A DNA stretch of 42,059 bases, taken from contig JACSDG010000014.1 of the NCBI GenBank assembly GCA_015660855.1, forward strand, positions 1 to 42,059, read 5' to 3'. A program made the translations under genes and the position numbers. The notes beneath the pieces were generated by a model, which had not been told where the DNA came from, searched no databases, and saw only the letters and a program-made list of their open reading frames with translations. Below, one piece after another: positions 1 to 42,059 of the stretch. The DNA is from Magnetococcales bacterium (GTDB taxonomy: Bacteria; Pseudomonadota; Magnetococcia; Magnetococcales; UBA8363). Position 1 is the first letter of the stretch; the number at the start of each line of letters is the position of its first letter.

Positions 1-95
1 CCCCCAAACCCCCACCGGGGGGGATGATCCCCCCCGGACCCCCGCAATAGTTTCAACCTACAAAAAAAAGGGGGGGGACGGAATGGCTACATAAT
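1..95. repeat. Intergenic G/C hairpin repeat, copy 1 (cut by window edge)
   Basis: Holds the module also seen near 23.4, 30.6, 36.0 and 41.9 kb: a C-run/G-run stem around GGGATGATCCC, then GGACCCCCGCAATAGTTTCA, then a poly-A/poly-G stretch ending GGACGGAATGGCTAC. It is oriented opposite to the copy at 41850-42059, whose modules are its reverse complement. It lies just past the stop codon of the chemoreceptor gene, where it could act as a terminator-like 3' structure. No gene is seen in it. Confidence 0.8.
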
Positions 96-3921: not shown

Positions 3922-6900
3922 TCAAGGTGATTCTGGCATTGCCAGCATGCGCTTTTCCTTTGGATCCCAGAACAATTCGTCGGGCATGTTTTCCAGGTAG
4001 GGTGGCGAATCAATATTAAAATGTCCAAGGAAATCATCCAGGGGCATCCACTCCCCCTCGGGAGTCACGAGATCTCCCCGGATGTAGGCGCGAAGACACC
4101 AGTTCAGACGCCCCTCACGCTGTTCCGGGTTACGAGCCAAGCTTTCCAATCGTTTTTGGTCCTCCACGGTACTTTGTCGGGCAATATGTCGGGCCAAGGC
4201 CGGCCACAAGGGTTCCGTGCGCCCCAAGGTTTGGTAACGACCCAATGCAGCCTTGAATTCTCTATCATCCCCCCCCTGGTCAAACGAAAGTCGGCAGGCA
4301 TGGTGGAACAACTCAATCTCTGGCCAGAGAGGGTCATCTTGCAGGGGCTTTAATTTGTCAGTTTCGTGGGACAACAGCACTCGTGTGCCTACCCGGCCTG
4401 GTGAGAAAAACTCGACCTGTAAAAAATCAAGGAGGGTTGGCAAGTTGGGATCGATACCATGCTTGCGCGCAACGTCGCGCGCAAAGTCGCGCGCAAAGTA
4501 GCGCGCAAAGTAGCGCGCAACGTCGCGCGCAAAGTCGCGCGCAACGTCGCGCGCAAAGTCGCGCGCAACGTAGCGCGCAACGTAGCGCGCAACGTAGCGC
4601 GCAAAGTAGCGCGCAAAGTCGCGCGCAACGTCGCGCGCAAAGTCGCGCGCAACGTCGCGCGCAACGTCGCGCATAAGATCATCTTCACTTGCTGAACACA
4701 TCCCGGCGATTACAGACCGGAATGGTGCCGATTCGTCCAACCCCTGGGTAAAAAGAAAGTTCTGACCGGTGAACCCCCATTGACGACGTTTCCCTGGCCA
4801 AGTTTGCAACAGCAAACTTTCGGACCACCCGGGCCAATGGGGAGGACCGCCGTTGAAAAAACGACCCGCAGCAACTCCTTTGTCTCCCGTGGGGGCGGAT
4901 TCCATGCCGTGAAACAATAATTTGATGCCAGGAACCTTGTGATCGGTCCATACGGGTAACCCCAGGTTTTGCAGCCCATCCATCAAACGCAGACAAGCCA
5001 TCCAGTTGGAGTTTTTTTCCCCCTCGGCCTGCCAAGCGGTTCCAAGAATAGTTTTGCGATCCGTCTGACGGCTGGCCCTCCACGCATTCAGGCAATGGTC
5101 CGCGAATTCATTTCCTTCCTGTGCCAACGCCGCCCCGCTTTGAGTTGCCCAATGGTGCATATCCTTCTCTTCCAGCAAACCGTCTGCCATGAAAGTTCCA
5201 GCCAACCACACCCCCGCTTTCGGGTCATCACAAAGATTGGAAAAAACGGGCCGTAACCGTTCCGGATTGGTGCCCGCCACCACCGCGGCCCAAAGACGCA
5301 GGGTTTCCCACCAAACAAGGGTGTCTTTTTTTTGTTCGCACAGGCCGATACGCCCCGGATCCCCTTCGATGGTGGCTTGCGAATGCCAGGCGGTGAGAAA
5401 TTCCTGGAAACTCAGGTGGGTAAAAGAAAGTTTTTCATCGCTCCGATCCACCAGCACCCCGGCGGGACCGGTAAGCCAGGAAAGAAATCCATATTTTTTC
5501 GATAGTTCCCATTCAGTCGGCAATAATGCAGCCATCTCCTCCCAGGATTGCACCAGACTGCCCCGATCTGATTTTTTATATCCTTTTTGCTGTATTCCAT
5601 GGGCCAGGGCAGCCACAATGCGCATACGTGTTTCGCCGGAATCGGGACGCCAACGAAATTTTTCCATCCCGACCCCATCCGCCTCCCTCCTGTCCGGCAA
5701 TGCCGACAGCAGATTGTCCAGGGTGATTTGGTAAAGTTTGTGGCGGCTGTCGGGCAGAGGGCTGGTACGGCTGATGAGAAGCATCATGGTAAGAAGCAGG
5801 GCGGTACGGGCCAAGGCATGGGCTTCGGGAGTGTTTGTCAACCGGTCCATGAATTCCGCAACAGCCTTGGTTGCGGCGTTTTGGTCGGTGCCATGGATGT
5901 GCAAGAAAAAATTTCGGGCCAGTTGTTCGATCTCCCCATCGTTCAATGGTTGGACATCCAACTCCCTGAAACCATCGCTGCCACTGGGGCGGCCATCGCC
6001 GTAGGGGCGGCTGCTTACCACCACCCGCACTCCGGGGTGTTCCTGGAGAAAGGGCAACAGTTTGGCGCGAAAATCCTGGCCCAGTTCTCCCAATTCATCC
6101 CAACCATCCACCAGCAAGACCGGAGTGATTTCCTGGGATCCGGCGAGCTGAGAAAAAAAAGTTTCCTGCCAAAACTTAAGATCGTGTTCTGCAAGCCAAG
6201 CGGTCAGGTAACTTTTCAGGTTGTGGTCTCTATCCGGTGCTTTTTTCCAGTAGCGCACCAAGGCACGCAGTTCCACCAGGACCGGAAAGACATCTTCACA
6301 TTTTAAAAGTTGCCTGAAAGTCCAGCGCATCCAGGTAGTTTTGCCCGATCCCGCCACCCCTCGCACAGCCAAAGGTTTTTCTAGTTTGACAATGTCCCCC
6401 GGCGCAAAAATCTGTCCATCATCAAGTTTACCGGGATCGTACCCTTTCCCCAGACGCAATGGGACATACATTTGTTCCAGAGTGGCATCCACAATTTTAC
6501 TGTTGCTCGGCCCCGCCGCCGCCGGCCCTGCATGCCGCAAATCCCACCGATCAAAAAGGTTACGCAGTTTATTACGGTAGGCCGATAGAAAACCTTTGTT
6601 TGAACCAACGATTGTACTGAGAGATCCCGTAGCCGAAGGAGTCATTGCTCCGGCCAGATGGATGTCTTGCTGGTAGGGGGAGACGCCAGTTTTCTGTGAC
6701 CAACCTCCGGGTTCAAGGGTACCGTGCACCATGATCTCAGGGGAAAAGTCGAGGGTCCAGGCGGTCACCGAATTTCCGCGAATGGTTAAAAGGCGACAGG
6801 AGTTGGGCTGATCCTCTCCACGCTCGGAAAGAGCCGCCCCCATGCTGCCAGCGGCAAAAACGTGGGTCATTCCTTTTGTTTCTTTCCAGGGAATAACTCC

Positions 6901-7635
6901 AACGTTACTTTCGTGCCTATGTCCATGCAAAACAAGTGAGACACGACACTGCTCCGACAATTGTGGCAACCATGTTTCCATCTTGCCGGTGGGGTTATGG
7001 TGCAGGGCCACGATACGCAGGGGAATCTTTGTGGCATCCTGCCCTTGCCAATAGTCCATGACGAGTTTGATCTTGTCTGGATCCAGTTCGCCGTGATGAT
7101 CCTCGTCCCGGTGCGATTCGGCATGATTGGAATTGAGGGTGGCGACGGCAACTCCCAAATCTTCAAACTCCGACAACAATGCCCCGTGGACATCCGCTAA
7201 CAACGCCGTAGGGGAATTATTCATAAAAGACTTATAAAATTCATTATAATAAACAAACTTTTCCGTGCCTATTTTTACCCTGAAGGCTCCTTCAGAAAAT
7301 TCATCTTCATCTATTAGTTGATTTTTAATACTCTCGCATTTTTGTCTGTAGCAATCATGGTTACCAGGCAAAAGAAGAAACCGGCTTGTATCCAGTTTGA
7401 ACTCAGAAGCCAAACAGTCGAGAAATTCCCGGGCGGGCTTGTATTCTCTTCGGAGTGAAGAATCAGTAAAATCACCGGTGACGATCACCAAATGCGGGTC
7501 CGCGCTTTCTAGGGATTTATGCACCCCGGCAGCCAATCCTTTGGCCAGTCGCTCCGGGGTTGTGTCGGAAAACCGGCCTTTACGGCCAAAGTGCAGGTCG
7601 GCCAAATGGAGGATGTGCAGAGGGTTGGTGAGCAT
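3922..7635 (-). CDS. Metallophosphoesterase-NACHT (STAND NTPase) protein with 17 tandem [VF]AR[DY] repeats
   Basis: Large three-part protein of 1237 residues. Residues 1-300 are a calcineurin-like phosphoesterase with all metal motifs: D13-x-H15, GDFTD at 54-58, GNHD at 91-94, HH at 212-213 and HGHRH at 237-241. Residues about 395-780 are a NACHT-type STAND NTPase: Walker A GVAGSGKT (426-433), Walker B LLVDGWDE (507-514), sensor VVVSSRPYG (538-546), and the winged-helix signature FTHLSFQEFL further on. The rest is a probable sensor region interrupted by 17 perfect four-residue repeats at 988-1055. Related effector-NACHT fusions are predicted or shown to act in phage defence, where target binding drives oligomerisation and the N-terminal effector acts, here presumably on a phosphodiester or nucleotide substrate. 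The following nuclease gene starts 6 bases downstream. Domain calls are firm; the defence role and substrate are inferred. Confidence 0.88.
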   Translation of the reverse strand: MLTNPLHILHLADLHFGRKGRFSDTTPERLAKGLAAGVHKSLESADPHLVIVTGDFTDSSLRREYKPAREFLDCLASEFKLDTSRFLLLPGNHDCYRQKCESIKNQLIDEDEFSEGAFRVKIGTEKFVYYNEFYKSFMNNSPTALLADVHGALLSEFEDLGVAVATLNSNHAESHRDEDHHGELDPDKIKLVMDYWQGQDATKIPLRIVALHHNPTGKMETWLPQLSEQCRVSLVLHGHRHESNVGVIPWKETKGMTHVFAAGSMGAALSERGEDQPNSCRLLTIRGNSVTAWTLDFSPEIMVHGTLEPGGWSQKTGVSPYQQDIHLAGAMTPSATGSLSTIVGSNKGFLSAYRNKLRNLFDRWDLRHAGPAAAGPSNSKIVDATLEQMYVPLRLGKGYDPGKLDDGQIFAPGDIVKLEKPLAVRGVAGSGKTTWMRWTFRQLLKCEDVFPVLVELRALVRYWKKAPDRDHNLKSYLTAWLAEHDLKFWQETFFSQLAGSQEITPVLLVDGWDELGELGQDFRAKLLPFLQEHPGVRVVVSSRPYGDGRPSGSDGFRELDVQPLNDGEIEQLARNFFLHIHGTDQNAATKAVAEFMDRLTNTPEAHALARTALLLTMMLLISRTSPLPDSRHKLYQITLDNLLSALPDRREADGVGMEKFRWRPDSGETRMRIVAALAHGIQQKGYKKSDRGSLVQSWEEMAALLPTEWELSKKYGFLSWLTGPAGVLVDRSDEKLSFTHLSFQEFLTAWHSQATIEGDPGRIGLCEQKKDTLVWWETLRLWAAVVAGTNPERLRPVFSNLCDDPKAGVWLAGTFMADGLLEEKDMHHWATQSGAALAQEGNEFADHCLNAWRASRQTDRKTILGTAWQAEGEKNSNWMACLRLMDGLQNLGLPVWTDHKVPGIKLLFHGMESAPTGDKGVAAGRFFNGGPPHWPGWSESLLLQTWPGKRRQWGFTGQNFLFTQGLDESAPFRSVIAGMCSASEDDLMRDVARDVARDFARDVARDFARYFARYVARYVARYVARDFARDVARDFARDVARYFARYFARDFARDVARKHGIDPNLPTLLDFLQVEFFSPGRVGTRVLLSHETDKLKPLQDDPLWPEIELFHHACRLSFDQGGDDREFKAALGRYQTLGRTEPLWPALARHIARQSTVEDQKRLESLARNPEQREGRLNWCLRAYIRGDLVTPEGEWMPLDDFLGHFNIDSPPYLENMPDELFWDPKEKRMLAMPESP
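4471..4674 (-). repeat. 12-bp coding minisatellite, 17 units, within the NACHT gene
   Basis: Seventeen contiguous 12-bp units; on the coding strand each reads (G/T)AC(G/T)TTGCGCGC. Only two bases vary, both G/T at first codon positions, so each unit encodes D or Y, then V or F, then A-R. In protein order the unit types are DV DV DF DV DF YF YV YV YV DF DV DF DV YF YF DF DV. The other ten bases, including every third codon position, are identical apart from the edge of the first unit in protein order (4663-4674). Such DNA-level identity points to recent expansion or homogenisation. Copy-number change by whole units keeps the reading frame. Confidence 0.97.
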
Positions 7636-20974: not shown

Positions 20975-21241
20975 ATGAATATGATCAAAAGTGGCGTTGA
21001 TCGGAAAAAAAACGCGCTTGTCACCACCCTGTTGCTTGGCATGGCCAGTGCCACACTGTATCTGCTGCTTTTCCTATACTCTGAATCATTGACCCATGTG
21101 GCAACGCTGATCCGCCAGGGACATAAGATCTATGTTGTCATTCCCATCGGTGGGGCATTGATTTTTTCTTTCGTTCACGGGGCATTCACGGGTCGCTTCT
21201 GGGATCTTCTGGGTCTCAAAGCCAAAAAACAGGTGGGGTGA
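20975..21241 (+). CDS. Small two-helix membrane protein upstream of TauE-Usp gene
   Basis: Predicted 88-residue protein with two membrane segments, LVTTLLLGMASATLYLLLFL and IYVVIPIGGALIFSFVHGAF, and a basic C-terminus (LGLKAKKQ). ATG 20975 follows AAGGAG by 9 bases. Its stop overlaps the GTG that opens the long frame of the next gene, so the two are translationally coupled. It is likely a small accessory subunit or partner of the TauE/SafE transporter, judged only from that coupling. No named family recognised. Confidence 0.8.
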   Translation: MNMIKSGVDRKKNALVTTLLLGMASATLYLLLFLYSESLTHVATLIRQGHKIYVVIPIGGALIFSFVHGAFTGRFWDLLGLKAKKQVG

Positions 21242-21246
21242 TCGAT

Positions 21247-23160
21247 ATGGAAACCATTCAGTTTATCGATTTGACGGTATCATCCACCATCATCCTGTTT
21301 TTGGTGGGATTTGTCGGGGGAATGGTCAGCGGCTTCATCGGCTCGGGAGGGGCTTTTGTCCTGACGCCGGCCATGATGAGCATGGGAGTGCCAGCCATTG
21401 TGGCGGTGGCAAGCAACATGGCCCACAAATTTCCCAAAGCCCTGGTGGGTGCCTACAAACGTAACAAATATGGCCAGGTCGATATCAAACTTGGCGTGGT
21501 AATGGGCATTTTCGCCGAAATCGGTGTTCTCATCGGCAAAAATATCATGGTGGATATCCGCGCAGCCTTCGGACCGACAGGAACCAATCTGTACGTCTCG
21601 TTCGTGTTCGTCGTGGTGCTGGCCATTGTAGGTAGTATCGTCCTCAAGGATGGCCTTATGGAAAAACGTGGCTTGGGAAAATCCATGGACCCGTCACCAA
21701 AAAAACTTCCGGCATTGGCCCAATGGGTTCGCCGCTTCCAAATACCGGGAACCATGATTCATTTCAAATCCATCGATGCCAAAATTTCCTTTTTGATATT
21801 GGCACCTCTGGGAATAGCTACCGGCATGCTGGCCGCCACCATTGCGGTGGGGGGATTCATCGGCGTCCCAGCCATGATGTATTTCGTCGGCCTTCCGGCG
21901 TTGACAGCCAGTGCCACCGAATTGGTCATTGCCTTTGTCATGGGCATGGGCGGTTCGATCCTGTACGCCATGGAGGGGGCGGTAGACATTCGCCTCGCCA
22001 TGATCATCCTGGCCGGTTCCCTCTTTGGCATCCAGATCGGAGCCATAGGCACAACCTACGTCAAAGATTATGTGGTCAAGTTTGTCATGGCCGCCATCAT
22101 GCTTATGGTACTGGTTAGCCGTTTTTTCTACATCCCAGGATACCTGTCACAATTGGGCCGGATTGCCCCAATAAAAGAAAGTACCATCAACGTGTTGAAC
22201 GGCATCGGTGAGGGAACCTTGTTCTTTGCCCTGGTCTTCGGAGCGGTCATGATCCTGCGTGCCCTCTACACCGGCATACGCGAGCACCGGATCACAGAAG
22301 TCGATGCCACCCCCTTGCCGGCACTGGCGTCACGGGAAAATTTTTCCCGTTTCCTTGTGGCCAGCGACGGATCCGATTTCAGTGCTGCCGCAGTTCGTGA
22401 AGCTTTCGGATTGGCGCAAAAATGTGCCTCCAAGGTTTATGTCATGTCGCTGGTGGCTACCGGAACCGAGTATGGTGGACTGGGCCAATCGATCCTTAAA
22501 CAGGAAATAACCCAAGCTCAAACTCTCCTGGATGACATCCAAAAAGATGCGGTTTCACTTGGCCTTTCCTGCGAAACACTGGTAATCAACGGCCAAGTTG
22601 TGGATCATGAAATCATATCCCAGGCAGAACGATTGCACACCGACCTGATTGTGATGGGACGTCGTGGTCGCAGGGGGCTGGCCCGCATGATGCTCGGGCA
22701 CGCCACGGCCAACGTCATCGGAAAGTCGCATTACAACGTCCTGGTCGTTCCCCGGGCTGCCCATATCGATGGACGACACATGGTGTTGGCCACGGATGGC
22801 TCGCGACATGCCGACAGAGCGGCCATCACCGCTGGAGAGTTGGCCAAAAAATGCCGCATGCCCATCACGGTGGTCAGCGTTGTTGAAGCGGATGCCCAAG
22901 CCGATCTTCGGTCCAAAGCCGAACAAACCGTCCAACGGGTGGTGGACTATTTGAAACGAGAAAAAATCACCGTGGAAGGACACGTTATGCTCGGACGTCC
23001 GGATGCCAAAATCATTGAGGTTGCCCAGGAAAAAAATGCCGATCTGATCGTGGTGGGAAGTCACGGACTCACTGGGCTGGAACGAATCCTTGTCGGCAGC
23101 ACCACCGAACGTATTCTCAATGGCACATCCACGGCAGTTTTAGTCGTCAAGGAAGGATGA
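21247..23160 (+). CDS. TauE/SafE family transporter fused to two UspA domains
   Basis: Predicted 637-residue protein. The first 345 residues form 8 or so membrane helices, with the paired glycine-rich TauE/SafE repeats GGMVSGFIGSGGAFVLTPAM and LAATIAVGGFIGVPAMMYFV. These proteins export sulfite, sulfoacetate or related anions. Two universal-stress-protein domains follow in the cytoplasm: the first begins FLVASDGSDFSAAAV and ends with GRRGRRGLARMMLG; the second begins MVLATDGSRHADRAA and ends with GSHGLTGLERILVGS, both with the ATP-binding G-x2-G-x9-G pattern. This suggests nucleotide or stress control of export. ATG 21247 has AGGTGGGG about 8 bases upstream; GTG 21238 is the alternative. The substrate is not readable from sequence. 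Confidence 0.9.
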   Translation: METIQFIDLTVSSTIILFLVGFVGGMVSGFIGSGGAFVLTPAMMSMGVPAIVAVASNMAHKFPKALVGAYKRNKYGQVDIKLGVVMGIFAEIGVLIGKNIMVDIRAAFGPTGTNLYVSFVFVVVLAIVGSIVLKDGLMEKRGLGKSMDPSPKKLPALAQWVRRFQIPGTMIHFKSIDAKISFLILAPLGIATGMLAATIAVGGFIGVPAMMYFVGLPALTASATELVIAFVMGMGGSILYAMEGAVDIRLAMIILAGSLFGIQIGAIGTTYVKDYVVKFVMAAIMLMVLVSRFFYIPGYLSQLGRIAPIKESTINVLNGIGEGTLFFALVFGAVMILRALYTGIREHRITEVDATPLPALASRENFSRFLVASDGSDFSAAAVREAFGLAQKCASKVYVMSLVATGTEYGGLGQSILKQEITQAQTLLDDIQKDAVSLGLSCETLVINGQVVDHEIISQAERLHTDLIVMGRRGRRGLARMMLGHATANVIGKSHYNVLVVPRAAHIDGRHMVLATDGSRHADRAAITAGELAKKCRMPITVVSVVEADAQADLRSKAEQTVQRVVDYLKREKITVEGHVMLGRPDAKIIEVAQEKNADLIVVGSHGLTGLERILVGSTTERILNGTSTAVLVVKEG

Positions 23161-23319: not shown

Positions 23320-23443
23320 GTAACCGTTCAGTCCCCCCGCCTTTTTTTCTTTAAAAGTATTGCGGGGGTCCGGGGGGAGGTTCTCCCCCCGGACCCCCGC
23401 AATAGTTTCAACCTAAAAAAAAGGGGGGGGACTAAATGGTCAC
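23320..23443. repeat. MITE-like 124-bp near-palindrome, full-length inverted form of the G/C hairpin family
   Basis: The left end GGTAACCGTTCAGTCCCCC matches inversely the right end GGGGACTAAATGGTCAC. The centre is a perfect 22-bp inverted repeat (23358-23379 with 23383-23404, built on TATTGCGGGGGTCCGG) around the loop GTT. T-rich and A-rich arms also pair. Copies at 1-95 and 41850 onward keep only one of the two outer ends. The element lies in the 450-bp convergent gap between the TauE-Usp gene and topA; no transposase or coding capacity is seen. Confidence 0.85.
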
Positions 23444-23572
23444 ATTGCGGAGGTCTGGAGGGAGATTTTCCCCCCGTGCTGCGACGCATCGTGAATAAAA
23501 TTATTGAAAGAAAAAAGGGGTCTGGGGGATTGCCCCCAGGGTTTTGACTTTGTTTTTGAATTTGAACAAAAA
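23444..23572. repeat. Degenerate hairpin-repeat modules downstream of topA
   Basis: Next to the palindrome lies a second, decayed copy: ATTGCGGAGGTCTGGAGGG with CCCCCCGTG. A further module, GGGGTCTGGGGGATTGCCCC followed by AGGGTTTTGACTTTG (23519-23553), also occurs at 36.4 kb and 42.0 kb. The latter could serve as a terminator for topA read on the minus strand, but it lacks a clean T tract. Confidence 0.6.
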
Positions 23573-23610: not shown

Positions 23611-25977
23611 CTACTCACTTTCCTGTTCTGTAGTCGCAGACTCCTGCTTCTCTCGATAATCACAGCCTTCCTGAACACACAGATGCTCAACACCCCAACG
23701 CTTGGTAATTTTTTCAGTCACAAACACCGCCCCACATTTGGGACACGGTTGATGCAAAGGTTTATTCCACAGCGCGTTTTTGCAGGCAGGATAGGTGGAG
23801 CAAGAATAAAAAATTTTGCCATAACGAGATTTTTTTTCCAAAAAATGACCCTTGCCACAGACCAGACAAGTAACACCGGTGGATTTCGGTTTTTCCAAAG
23901 GCTGGTTGTTGCGACAGTCGGGATAGCCACTACAGGAAAGATATTTCCCATAACGTCCATCCTTGATCAACATGGGCTTGCCGCATTTTTCACATTTTTC
24001 CGTAGAAACCTCCGGCTCTGCCTTAACCTCATCCACCGTCCCATCTTTTTTGATATTGCGACTAAAGCGACACTCAGGATAATTGGAACAGGCCAGAAAT
24101 TTTCCAAACCGACCCAGTTTAATCAACAGTGGCTTGGAACATTCGGGACAGGTTTCACTGGTGGTTTCCGAGGTAAAATCGGAACGATTGGTGGTTTTTT
24201 CCTTGTCCTGAACCTGAATGATAAAAGGATTCCAAAAATTTTGCAGCAGCGGCACCCATTCCTTCTCGCCCCTGGAAACGGCATCCAGATCATCTTCCAA
24301 GTGTGCAGTAAAATGAAAATCTACATAACGATTAAAATGTTCCACCAGAAAACGATTGACCACCATCCCGACATCTTCCGGGAAAAACTTTTTGCTTTCC
24401 AGGCGTACATAGCCACGATCCTGGAGCGTAGACATGGTGGGTGCATAGGTGGAAGGACGACCGATGCCATAACTCTCAAGGGATTTGACCAGGGTAGCCT
24501 CGGTATAACGCGGTGGCGGCTCGGTAAAATGCTGCCGGGGTTCCAGCGTTTTCACCAACAAGGTCTCCCCCTTTTCCAAAGGTGGCAACATCCCTTTGTC
24601 TTCCTCCTCCTCAGTCCGATCCTGGACCGACACTTCATCGCGCCCTTCCAAATAAACTTTCATAAACCCGGCAAAGCGAACCGACGAACCGGTGGCACGA
24701 AAACGAAAAGGGGCGTCAGGAGAACCGGACCCCACCGAAAGAGTTGCAGCAACGTTGTCAATCTGGGCCTCGGCCATCTGACAGGCCATGGTCCGTTTCC
24801 AGATAAGTTCGTAGAGACGAAACATATCCTTTTCCAAAGTTTGACGCAGTTTTTCCGGAGTCAACGCCGCGTTGGTGGGCCGGATGGCTTCATGGGCTTC
24901 CTGGGCATTTTTGGTTGTGGATTTAAATTTTCGCTCCGCTTTCGGCAAATATTCGGGTCCAAAACGTTGTTTGACCACCTCACGAATAGCTTCGACGGCC
25001 TCTTGGGCCAGATTGACCGAATCGGTTCTCATGTAGGTGATCAAACCGTAGGTCTCGGAAACCCCGAGGATAGATTCGTCTTTTATTTCAACCCCTTCGT
25101 ATAATTTTTGGGCACAAACCATGGTCTTTTTCGCCGAAAATCCCAGTTTGCGTGAAGCCTCCTGTTGCAAGGTTGAGGTGATAAAAGGAGGTGAGGGTTT
25201 ACGTTTGGATTGTTTTTTTTCCAATTCAGAAACGATCAAATCCTGCCCTTGCAATTCCTTAAGAAGGTTTTCCGCCTGCTCCTGGTTGGCAATGTCAAAT
25301 TTATCGAGTTTATTGCCATGGGCCACCTGTAACCGGGTAATGAAAGGATGGGATTCATCCCCCTGCCCTTTGGCGACCAAAGCCTCGATGCTCCAATACT
25401 CCTGCGTTTGAAACGCCTGTATTTCGGCTTCGCGTTCGCAAACCAGGCGCAGAGCCACCGATTGCACCCGTCCCGCCGACAAACCACGCCGCACTTTTTT
25501 CCACAGCAACGGGCTTAAATTAAAACCAACCAAATAATCTAATGCCCGCCGCGCCTGTTGCGCATTAACAAGGTTCATGTTCACTTCGCGGGCGTTGGCG
25601 ATAGCCTCTTCGATGGCGCGTTTGGTGATCTCGTGAAAAACCACTCGCTTGATCGCTTTGTTTTTCAAAGAGATTTTCTTCTCCCTGAAAACTTCAAGGA
25701 CATGCCAGGAGATGGCTTCTCCTTCACGATCCGGGTCGGTAGCCAGCAAGATTTCATCGGCATCCTTGACCTCCTTAACCAAGGCTGTGACATGCTTACC
25801 CGATTGCTTGGCAACCTCATAATGCATGTAGAAATCTTTTTCGGGATCTACGGAACCATTTTTTTTTGGAAGATCACGGATATGGCCATAGGTTGCCACC
25901 ACAGCATAGTCCTGACCCAGGAACTTGTTGATGGTTTTGGCCTTGGCAGGTGATTCGACGATGACTACGGCACGCAT
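23611..25977 (-). CDS. topA: DNA topoisomerase I
   Basis: Type IA topoisomerase of 788 residues that relaxes negative supercoils. The Toprim domain has VIVESPAKAKTINKFLG (E8) and DPDREGEA (81-88). The catalytic tyrosine is Y315 in GLITYMRTDS. The QARRALDYLVGF and RRGLSAGRVQSVALRLV motifs are conserved. The C-terminal 190 residues carry four zinc-ribbon repeats, each C-x2-C ... C-x4-5-C, such as CPECSKPLL/CSNYPEC, CEKCGKPML/CSGYPDC and CLVCGKGHF/CSTYPAC. The last one (CPKCGAVF...CVQEGC) is more divergent. It starts 70 bases after the dprA stop as the last gene of a five-gene minus-strand operon; a dprA-topA order is common in proteobacteria. Confidence 0.97.
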   Translation of the reverse strand: MRAVVIVESPAKAKTINKFLGQDYAVVATYGHIRDLPKKNGSVDPEKDFYMHYEVAKQSGKHVTALVKEVKDADEILLATDPDREGEAISWHVLEVFREKKISLKNKAIKRVVFHEITKRAIEEAIANAREVNMNLVNAQQARRALDYLVGFNLSPLLWKKVRRGLSAGRVQSVALRLVCEREAEIQAFQTQEYWSIEALVAKGQGDESHPFITRLQVAHGNKLDKFDIANQEQAENLLKELQGQDLIVSELEKKQSKRKPSPPFITSTLQQEASRKLGFSAKKTMVCAQKLYEGVEIKDESILGVSETYGLITYMRTDSVNLAQEAVEAIREVVKQRFGPEYLPKAERKFKSTTKNAQEAHEAIRPTNAALTPEKLRQTLEKDMFRLYELIWKRTMACQMAEAQIDNVAATLSVGSGSPDAPFRFRATGSSVRFAGFMKVYLEGRDEVSVQDRTEEEEDKGMLPPLEKGETLLVKTLEPRQHFTEPPPRYTEATLVKSLESYGIGRPSTYAPTMSTLQDRGYVRLESKKFFPEDVGMVVNRFLVEHFNRYVDFHFTAHLEDDLDAVSRGEKEWVPLLQNFWNPFIIQVQDKEKTTNRSDFTSETTSETCPECSKPLLIKLGRFGKFLACSNYPECRFSRNIKKDGTVDEVKAEPEVSTEKCEKCGKPMLIKDGRYGKYLSCSGYPDCRNNQPLEKPKSTGVTCLVCGKGHFLEKKSRYGKIFYSCSTYPACKNALWNKPLHQPCPKCGAVFVTEKITKRWGVEHLCVQEGCDYREKQESATTEQESE

Positions 25978-30589: not shown

Positions 30590-30697
30590 GACATGATGCC
30601 CTGCGGGCAAAGACCAAAACCTTGGTGGGCTGCCGCCTCCAAACCTCCGCCGGGGGGGATGATCCCCCCCGGACCCCCGCAATAATTTTTACCAAAC
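30590..30697. repeat. Intergenic hairpin repeat, copy between ssb and purN
   Basis: Contains in order the small hairpin GATGCCCTGCGGGC, AAGACCAAAACCTTGG, a decayed CCTCCAAACCTCCGCC module, the GGGGGGATGATCCCCCC palindrome, and GGACCCCCGCAATAATTTTT then CCAAACT. The orientation is the same as at 35.9 kb. It lies between convergent ends of ssb and purN, where it may end transcription from both sides. Confidence 0.8.
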
Positions 30698-30713
30698 TCA
30701 CCGCAAATTTTTT

Positions 30714-35894: not shown

Positions 35895-36142
35895 GAATTT
35901 CTGCCTTTTTAGTTTTTGAACATGATGCCCTGTGGGCTTCGCCCCCAAACCCCCATAGACATGAAGCTTTTTGTTTAAATTCAAAACCAAAACCTTGGGG
36001 CGCTGCCCCAAACCCCGCTGGGGGGGATGATCCCCCCCGGACCCCCACAATAATTTTTGCCAAACTTTGTTTTTCCGATACATTGAATTTCTGCCTTTTT
36101 TGTTTTTTTGAATTTCTGCCTTTTTTGAATTTCTGCCTTTTT
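35895..36142. repeat. Four dispersed copies of a 16-base GAATTTCTGCCTTTTT repeat
   Basis: Copies at 35895-35910, 36085-36100, about 36110-36124 and 36127-36142, the last three spaced 17-25 bases apart and separated by T-rich runs. They flank the G/C repeat element at 35920-36082, the first copy lying before it and the rest after it, which may mark an insertion or slippage event. The rest of the 595-base gap between radC and mnmE (36143-36400) is very AT-rich, without a supported gene. Confidence 0.75.
35920..36082. repeat. Intergenic hairpin repeat, long composite copy
   Basis: Modules in order: GAACATGATGCCCTGTGGGC, CTTCGCCCCCAAACCCCC, TAGACATGAAGC, AAAACCAAAACCTTGGGGCG, a GCCCCAAACCCCGC module, the GGGGGGATGATCCCCCCCGG palindrome, then ACCCCCACAATAATTTTTGC and CAAACTTTGTTTTTCCG. 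It shares both ends with the shorter copy at 7688-7803, from which the central part is missing. Confidence 0.8.
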
Positions 36143-41700: not shown

Positions 41701-41737
41701 AACTATTGGAAAAAATTATTGCGGGGGTCCGGGGAGG
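41698..41737. repeat. Truncated hairpin-repeat copy after the NusG-domain gene
   Basis: AAAAAATTATTGCGGGGGTCC then GGGGAGGATCATCTC is one arm of the family palindrome whose opposite arm is missing; it decays into unrelated sequence (41738-41845, no gene seen). Confidence 0.65.
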
Positions 41738-41849
41738 ATCATCTCAATGCCATTAATTTAAGCTTCTACCGACCCCGTTTATACGCTGGACGAACCCGGG
41801 TTCCAATGCCAGGATGCAATCTTCGAGCAAATTTTTTACCTGGTCAAAC

Positions 41850-42059
41850 GTAACCATTCAGTCCCCCCCCTCTTTTTCTAAGATTGAAACTATTGTGGGG
41901 GTCCGGGGGGGATCATCCCCCCCGGTGGGGGTTTGGGGGCAAAGCCCCCAAGGTTCTTCTTTTGACTTTGATTTTGATTTTACTGCCCCCCAAGGGGGGT
42001 CTAGGGGCGCAGCCCCAGGGTTTTGATTTTGATTCTTTTGCCTGAAGGGCATAATGTCC
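41850..42059. repeat. Intergenic hairpin repeat, most complete composite copy (plus orientation)
   Basis: Modules in order: the outer end GTAACCATTCAGTCCCCCCC, GATTGAAACTATTGTGGGGG, the GGGGGGGATCATCCCCCCC palindrome, GGGGGTTTGGGGGCAAAGCC then CCCAAGG, a second CCCCCCAAGGGGGGTCTAGG / GCCCCAGGG hairpin, TTTTGATTTTGATTC, and the end GCCTGAAGGGCATAATGTCC. It shows the full module order of the family, running to the window edge. Apparent short reading frames in it are not credible genes. Confidence 0.85.

Follow-up and report, generated by a model that had tools for sequence, protein, structure and literature searches.

A near-perfect palindrome of a probably magnetotactic bacterium as a likely short IS66-type MITE

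Between two convergent genes of a Magnetococcales bacterium lies a palindrome of 124 bp, and its shape raises the question of what it is: a non-autonomous mobile element, the founder of a family of repeats, or a structured RNA end. The window analysed here, 42,059 nucleotides long, is one whole contig (C112) of a 4.52-Mb genome assembled in 238 contigs. The magnetochrome domain PF18509 has 8 matches in this genome, 6 of them on one contig and 7 over the cut-off, and none in 14 control genomes; these matches mark the genome as that of a probable magnetotactic bacterium. We consider, with a probability of roughly 0.88, that the palindrome is a short non-autonomous MITE mobilised in trans by a single-ORF transposase of the IS66 family, similar to the ISBst12 group. 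This reading is based on terminal repeats, a high copy number and 8-bp target duplications, on sites that are empty in relatives, and on transposase-carrying elements that share these ends. Most of the features of an IS66 MITE were found, and the one that failed is a target duplication at the window copy itself.

The palindrome and its surroundings

The initial annotation described a nearly complete palindrome with matching inverted outer ends and a perfect central inverted repeat of 22 bp with a 3-base loop, and this description was correct in each part. The inverted repeat consists of two 47-nt arms (23333-23379 and 23383-23429) that are 83% complementary and separated by 3 nt. Its inner 22 bp (23358-23379 against 23383-23404) pair without a mismatch (22/22) around the loop GTT, and the outer ends are terminal repeats in opposite orientation (Table 1). 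The predicted RNA fold of the 124 bp has an energy of -88.6 kcal/mol, compared with -43.3 +/- 4.1 kcal/mol in 200 shuffled sequences (z = -11), none of which equalled it. The palindrome also has 88 BLAST matches within its own genome, with both strands counted at palindromic places, and is therefore no chance structure. The suggestion of a dedicated structured RNA end gained no support, since a covariance-model search of the window against Rfam gave no match at the gathering score.

Table 1. Features of the window that bear on the palindrome
Feature	Position	Strand	Remarks
Family member entering at 90	1-90	-	Cut by the contig start
TauE/SafE + Usp gene	21238-23160	+	3' end toward the element
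Probable complete short (124-bp) IS66-type MITE, near-perfect palindrome	23320-23443		Without target duplication
Left terminal repeat, GTAACCGTTCAGTCCCCCC	23320-23338	+	Arm type A
Central hairpin, 22-bp stem and 3-base loop	23358-23404		Terminator-like on the minus strand, with only a weak T tract
Right terminal repeat, GTGACCATTTAGTCCCCCC	23425-23443	-	Arm type B
Leftover from the interior of a further family member, ATTGCGGAGGTCTGGAGGGAGATTTTCCCCCCGTGCTGCG	23444-23483	+	36/40 bases as in the insides at L026 and L036, counted by eye
DNA topoisomerase I gene (topA)	23611-25977	-	3' end toward the element, convergent
Long-form family member	41850-42059	+	Cut by the contig end; 93% identical to the 286-bp element of C131, which is complete

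The element occupies the convergent gap between the TauE/Usp gene and topA. At its edges an 8-bp target duplication is absent, as only 1/8 bases agree. The remnant of another family member that abuts the right end may account for the missing duplication on that side.

Two other repeats were observed in the window. A hairpin repeat containing AGAAAAAAGGGGTCTGGGGGATTGCCCCCAGGG lies behind topA (window 23505-23560; also L072 and L075); its orientation here is opposite to that in G004, both orientations occur in G002, and it may itself flip or move. An array of 12-base units (GCGCGCAAAGTC and variants; 4465-4672) gives 18 overlapping register matches and lies within an ORF of 1237 aa (3922-7635, minus strand) that carries metallophosphatase and NACHT domains.

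Copy number, insertion sites and the probable mover

At up to 3 mismatches, 278 matches to the outer end GTAACCATTCAGTCCCCCC were counted in 4.52 Mb, compared with a single match of the reversed pattern used as control. At up to 2 mismatches it was found 198 times here and 0-9 times in each of 60 other genomes, an excess of about 20-fold or more over the congeners. The palindrome belongs to a family with well over a hundred relatives in this genome. The outer boundary is sharp, with unrelated flanks ending at GTAACC. Complete copies are mostly 117-438 bp long and contain no transposase gene. A pattern scan of genome contigs, which may leave out near genomes, returned 6 stretches, all from other lineages. 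The counts of duplications, forms and placements given below rest on 158 of the 278 ends (142 after a stricter filter) in the retrieved stretches.

The proposal of a MITE-like, non-autonomous mobile element was supported by target duplications, by insertion polymorphism between species and by a matching IS66 transposon. Pairing of inverted ends among the 158 gave 25 pairs, and the 23 of 100-900 bp were used in the duplication test (a 50-bp pair on C32 and a 1440-bp pair on C155 were left out). An exact 8-bp direct repeat stood at the edges of 4 of these 23 elements but in only 1 of 506 cross pairings (Fisher p = 1.3e-5). The four elements are those of C236 (125 bp), C208 (127 bp), C68 (229 bp) and C131 (286 bp), and the duplications read CTTCCATC, ATGCCGAT, GGATGACC and TCGCGACT. 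Near-exact duplications were seen at C116 (388 bp; 7/8) and C200 (122 bp; 8/9), and no end pair matched over 6, 7, 9 or 10 abutting bases. In the other 17 of the 23, an exact 8-bp duplication was absent and so was a near one (7/8 or 8/9), which suggests that many copies are old, recombined or mis-paired.

All comparisons of insertion sites were made between species. Both flanks of the C208 element were found in 6 of 7 congeners around gaps of 134-280 bp, compared with 455-501 bp here, and no element was seen in the six gaps on inspection. These gaps are shorter than loss of the element and its duplication explains, so other indels must have occurred as well. For the C131 element the sizes agree closely: in 5 of 7 congeners its flanks surround gaps of 64, 94, 89, 90 and 101 bp, where 69, 91, 107, 108 and 89 bp, respectively, were expected from the gap here minus the element and 8 bp, and no end motif was found in these five gaps. 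Of the remaining two congeners, G003 has the site split over two contigs and G004 gave repeat matches only. All 11 informative comparisons (6 for C208, 5 for C131) thus show an orthologous site that lacks the element. The window locus itself was uninformative as an empty-site test because the gene order beyond topA differs in relatives, and in none of the relatives could the flanks of the C236 element be matched beyond the repeat.

A probable cognate transposase with similar ends was also found. The IS66 DDE transposase domain (PF03050) has 3 matches at two places in the genome, and no intact copy was seen in the assembly. On contig C223, a transposase of 310 aa (PF03050, E 1.8e-30; 179.1 bits against NF033517, whose cut-off is 180) is truncated by the contig end and adjoins the end GTAACCGTTCACCCCCCCC, which is identical to the end of the C236 MITE over 19/19 bases; on C90, a broken IS66 copy lies between GTAACC ends. 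Close relatives of this IS66 enzyme (E <= 1e-40) occur in 7 of 48 genomes of the order, this one included, with 12 matches in G018. When 13 of the relative loci were scanned for ends, six held a complete element, 1.70-1.97 kb long, that ends in GTAACCGTTCAGAGACCCC and is flanked by an exact 8-bp duplication (5 in G018, 1 in G022). One further locus (L176) had an end pair without duplication, and the six others had no such pair. The transposase frames of the complete elements are 537-549 aa long, and a single gene thus takes up most of the length. The sequence GTAACCGTTCAG is common to the MITE ends and the intact IS66 elements of the order, and the ends of the latter agree with most MITE ends over only about the first 12 bases. 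Judged from the ends and the duplication, the cognate mover is very probably a single-ORF IS66-family (ISBst12-like) element. The transposase would recognise the terminal repeat GTAACCRTTCAGTCCCCCC and insert the element in trans, creating the 8-bp target duplication.

A short GC-rich palindrome present in many copies, mostly outside genes, also recalls the REP/BIME-type palindromes spread by a RAYT (Y1 tyrosine) transposase. Single-strand transposition by Y1 enzymes is not expected to create 8-bp duplications, and the terminal repeats match those of DDE IS66 elements. We regard this origin as highly improbable.

Two observations were made beside these loci. A fragment in G044, from another family of the order (L178), carries the end GTAACCGTTCACCCCCCCC and is 89% identical to the IS66 transposase of this genome over 123 residues, while the other relatives listed are 52-59% identical; judged by this identity, a recent transfer is possible. 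Contig C223 also contains an ORF of 389 aa (L060 402-1571, minus strand) with an N-terminal zinc motif, from which we presume it to be an IS91/ISCR-type (Y2) transposase.

ISDge4, a member of the ISBst12 group of IS66 that is reported to transpose, has the ends GTGACTACTCAGCA and GTAACTGCTCAGCA and an 8-bp repeat (PMC12898284). Like the MITE, elements of this group have a terminal repeat starting GTAAC..nTCAG and an 8-bp target duplication. The autonomous relatives have a single transposase ORF, whereas the MITE lacks a transposase gene and is made up internally of GC hairpins that also occur at other places in the genus. A parallel among IS-derived MITEs is MITECca01 of Cardinium, derived from IS982 and present in 169 copies (PMC9769881). 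It is likewise short and non-autonomous, lies mostly outside genes, exceeds 100 copies within a single lineage and is presumed to be moved by its parental IS, but it derives from another IS family and retains parental sequence beside its ends. ERIC and SPRITE/RUP/BOX are intergenic repeat elements of other hosts that resemble the present family by description only; SPRITE is described as similar to rho-independent terminators, and BOX, RUP and SPRITE as inserting into one another (PMC10969869). The MITE of PMC12888890 belongs to another family and has a 4-bp repeat, and the works PMC3189936, PMC9769881 and PMC3281130 concern families other than IS66. No report of a MITE family assigned to IS66 was found among the open-licence PubMed Central papers searched.

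Half copies, long forms and the founder question

It had been noticed that the other copies carry only half of the palindrome. This is how they appear to a reader of the window, but both other GTAACC-ended copies stop at contig ends: the window is a whole contig, and the copies run off it. The same holds more widely, because 61 unpaired ends have no more than 450 bases of contig inward (at 59 distinct contig ends), and many copies therefore look like halves. Three further window copies (30639-30698, 36007-36066 and 41713-41743) have the inner hairpin without a GTAACC end and belong to a hairpin repeat found across the genus. At several places this genus-wide repeat starts with (T)TTGG.AAAAATTATTGCGGGGG.

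When 142 ends were classified, 61 were of a long form, with a further terminator-like hairpin beyond the hairpin, and 11 were of the closed 124-bp type; the remainder lacked such a hairpin (38), were of other structure (26) or ran off the contig (6). A pattern specific to the short form matched just three loci, which leaves the strict 124-bp form as a small fraction of the family. Complete long forms (286-438 bp) are largely nested palindromes. Two arm types were distinguished, A (CTTTAAAAG) and B (GGTTGAAA), and the combination A+B occurs in the short copies of C112, C236 and C208 and also in the long copies of C18, C229 and C202.

These findings speak against the proposal that the 124-bp palindrome founded the family. 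If it were ancestral, long forms would have arisen by insertion of the terminator repeat into its centre. The short copies of C236 and C208 lie at unrelated sites with exact target duplications, so that the short unit may transpose as such. However, most of the hairpin-bearing ends are long, the A and B arms are common to short and some long copies, and a single central deletion in a nested palindrome with A+B arms would yield the 124-bp form in one step. We therefore reject the founder role, without certainty, and hold it to be improbable. It is more likely that the 124-bp form is an internal-deletion derivative of a longer element, which would arise when the inside of a nested palindrome of 286-438 bp is lost.

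Placement behind genes and the meaning of the family

The position of the copies relative to genes was assessed with plain longest-ORF calls. After 6 ends with short flanks were left out, 136 had enough flank, and 6 of these lay far from any frame. The ends avoid genes: an open frame was touched by 41 of the 130 classified ends (41/136 if the distant ones are counted), compared with 1091 of 1500 random positions in windows. A gene points at 56 of the 89 intergenic ends, compared with 47% at window positions drawn at random (p = 0.02 against one half). Open frames of at least 120 codons, the one limit used throughout, enter the element at 26 ends, and in 17 of these the GTAA end gives an immediate TAA stop, the other two frames being used 7 and 2 times (p = 0.0008). 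Frames entering from the reverse direction were distributed evenly (10, 9 and 8), as were random positions (943, 879 and 902; TAA frame 902/2724). The 388-bp long form contains 6 terminator-like sites on both strands, compared with 1.5 expected.

It might be argued from such data that the copies are a fixed, immobile class of strong bidirectional terminators multiplied by duplication or conversion. The excess of ends behind genes, the terminator-like stems of the 388-bp form and the fact that the inner hairpin stands behind genes throughout the genus where GTAACC ends are missing would all agree with this. Yet exact 8-bp duplications, empty orthologous sites for two GTAACC-ended copies and a copy number far above that of the congeners are at odds with immobility, and we judge this explanation very unlikely. 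Restriction to conserved orthologous terminators was not found for the GTAACC-ended copies; it is partly true of the inner hairpin, which is present genus-wide without these ends.

With a mobile IS66-type MITE as the preferred reading, the placement suggests selection for harmless sites, and serving as a 3' end may be of benefit. Inserted elements would be tolerated for the most part behind genes. There, the GTAA of the end could provide a stop codon, and the GC hairpins, with their T runs, could end transcription from both sides. The same outer end GTAACCATTCAGTCCCCCC also surrounds a GC hairpin in Competibacteraceae (L053, L057 and L058), but the inner hairpin there is a different one, CCCCCCTTTGGCAAAGGGGGG. 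In one of these metagenome-assembled elements (L053, 417 onwards), the flanks show a 9-bp direct repeat, CTCTGCTTG. A bolder and rather doubtful proposal is that the family is a spreading gene-ender, in which the IS66-type end donates an in-frame TAA together with bidirectional terminator hairpins captured from the genus-wide repeat, copies that fall at the end of a gene turn into functional 3' ends, and a like capture took place independently in Competibacteraceae.

The element family explains part of the fragmentation of this assembly, as at least 59 contig ends lie within or near such elements among those examined. For a bacterium that is probably magnetotactic, the results presented here name the likely mover of an extensive family of repeats. 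With this family one can also test whether a mobile element brings its own stop codon and terminators to the genes behind which it inserts.
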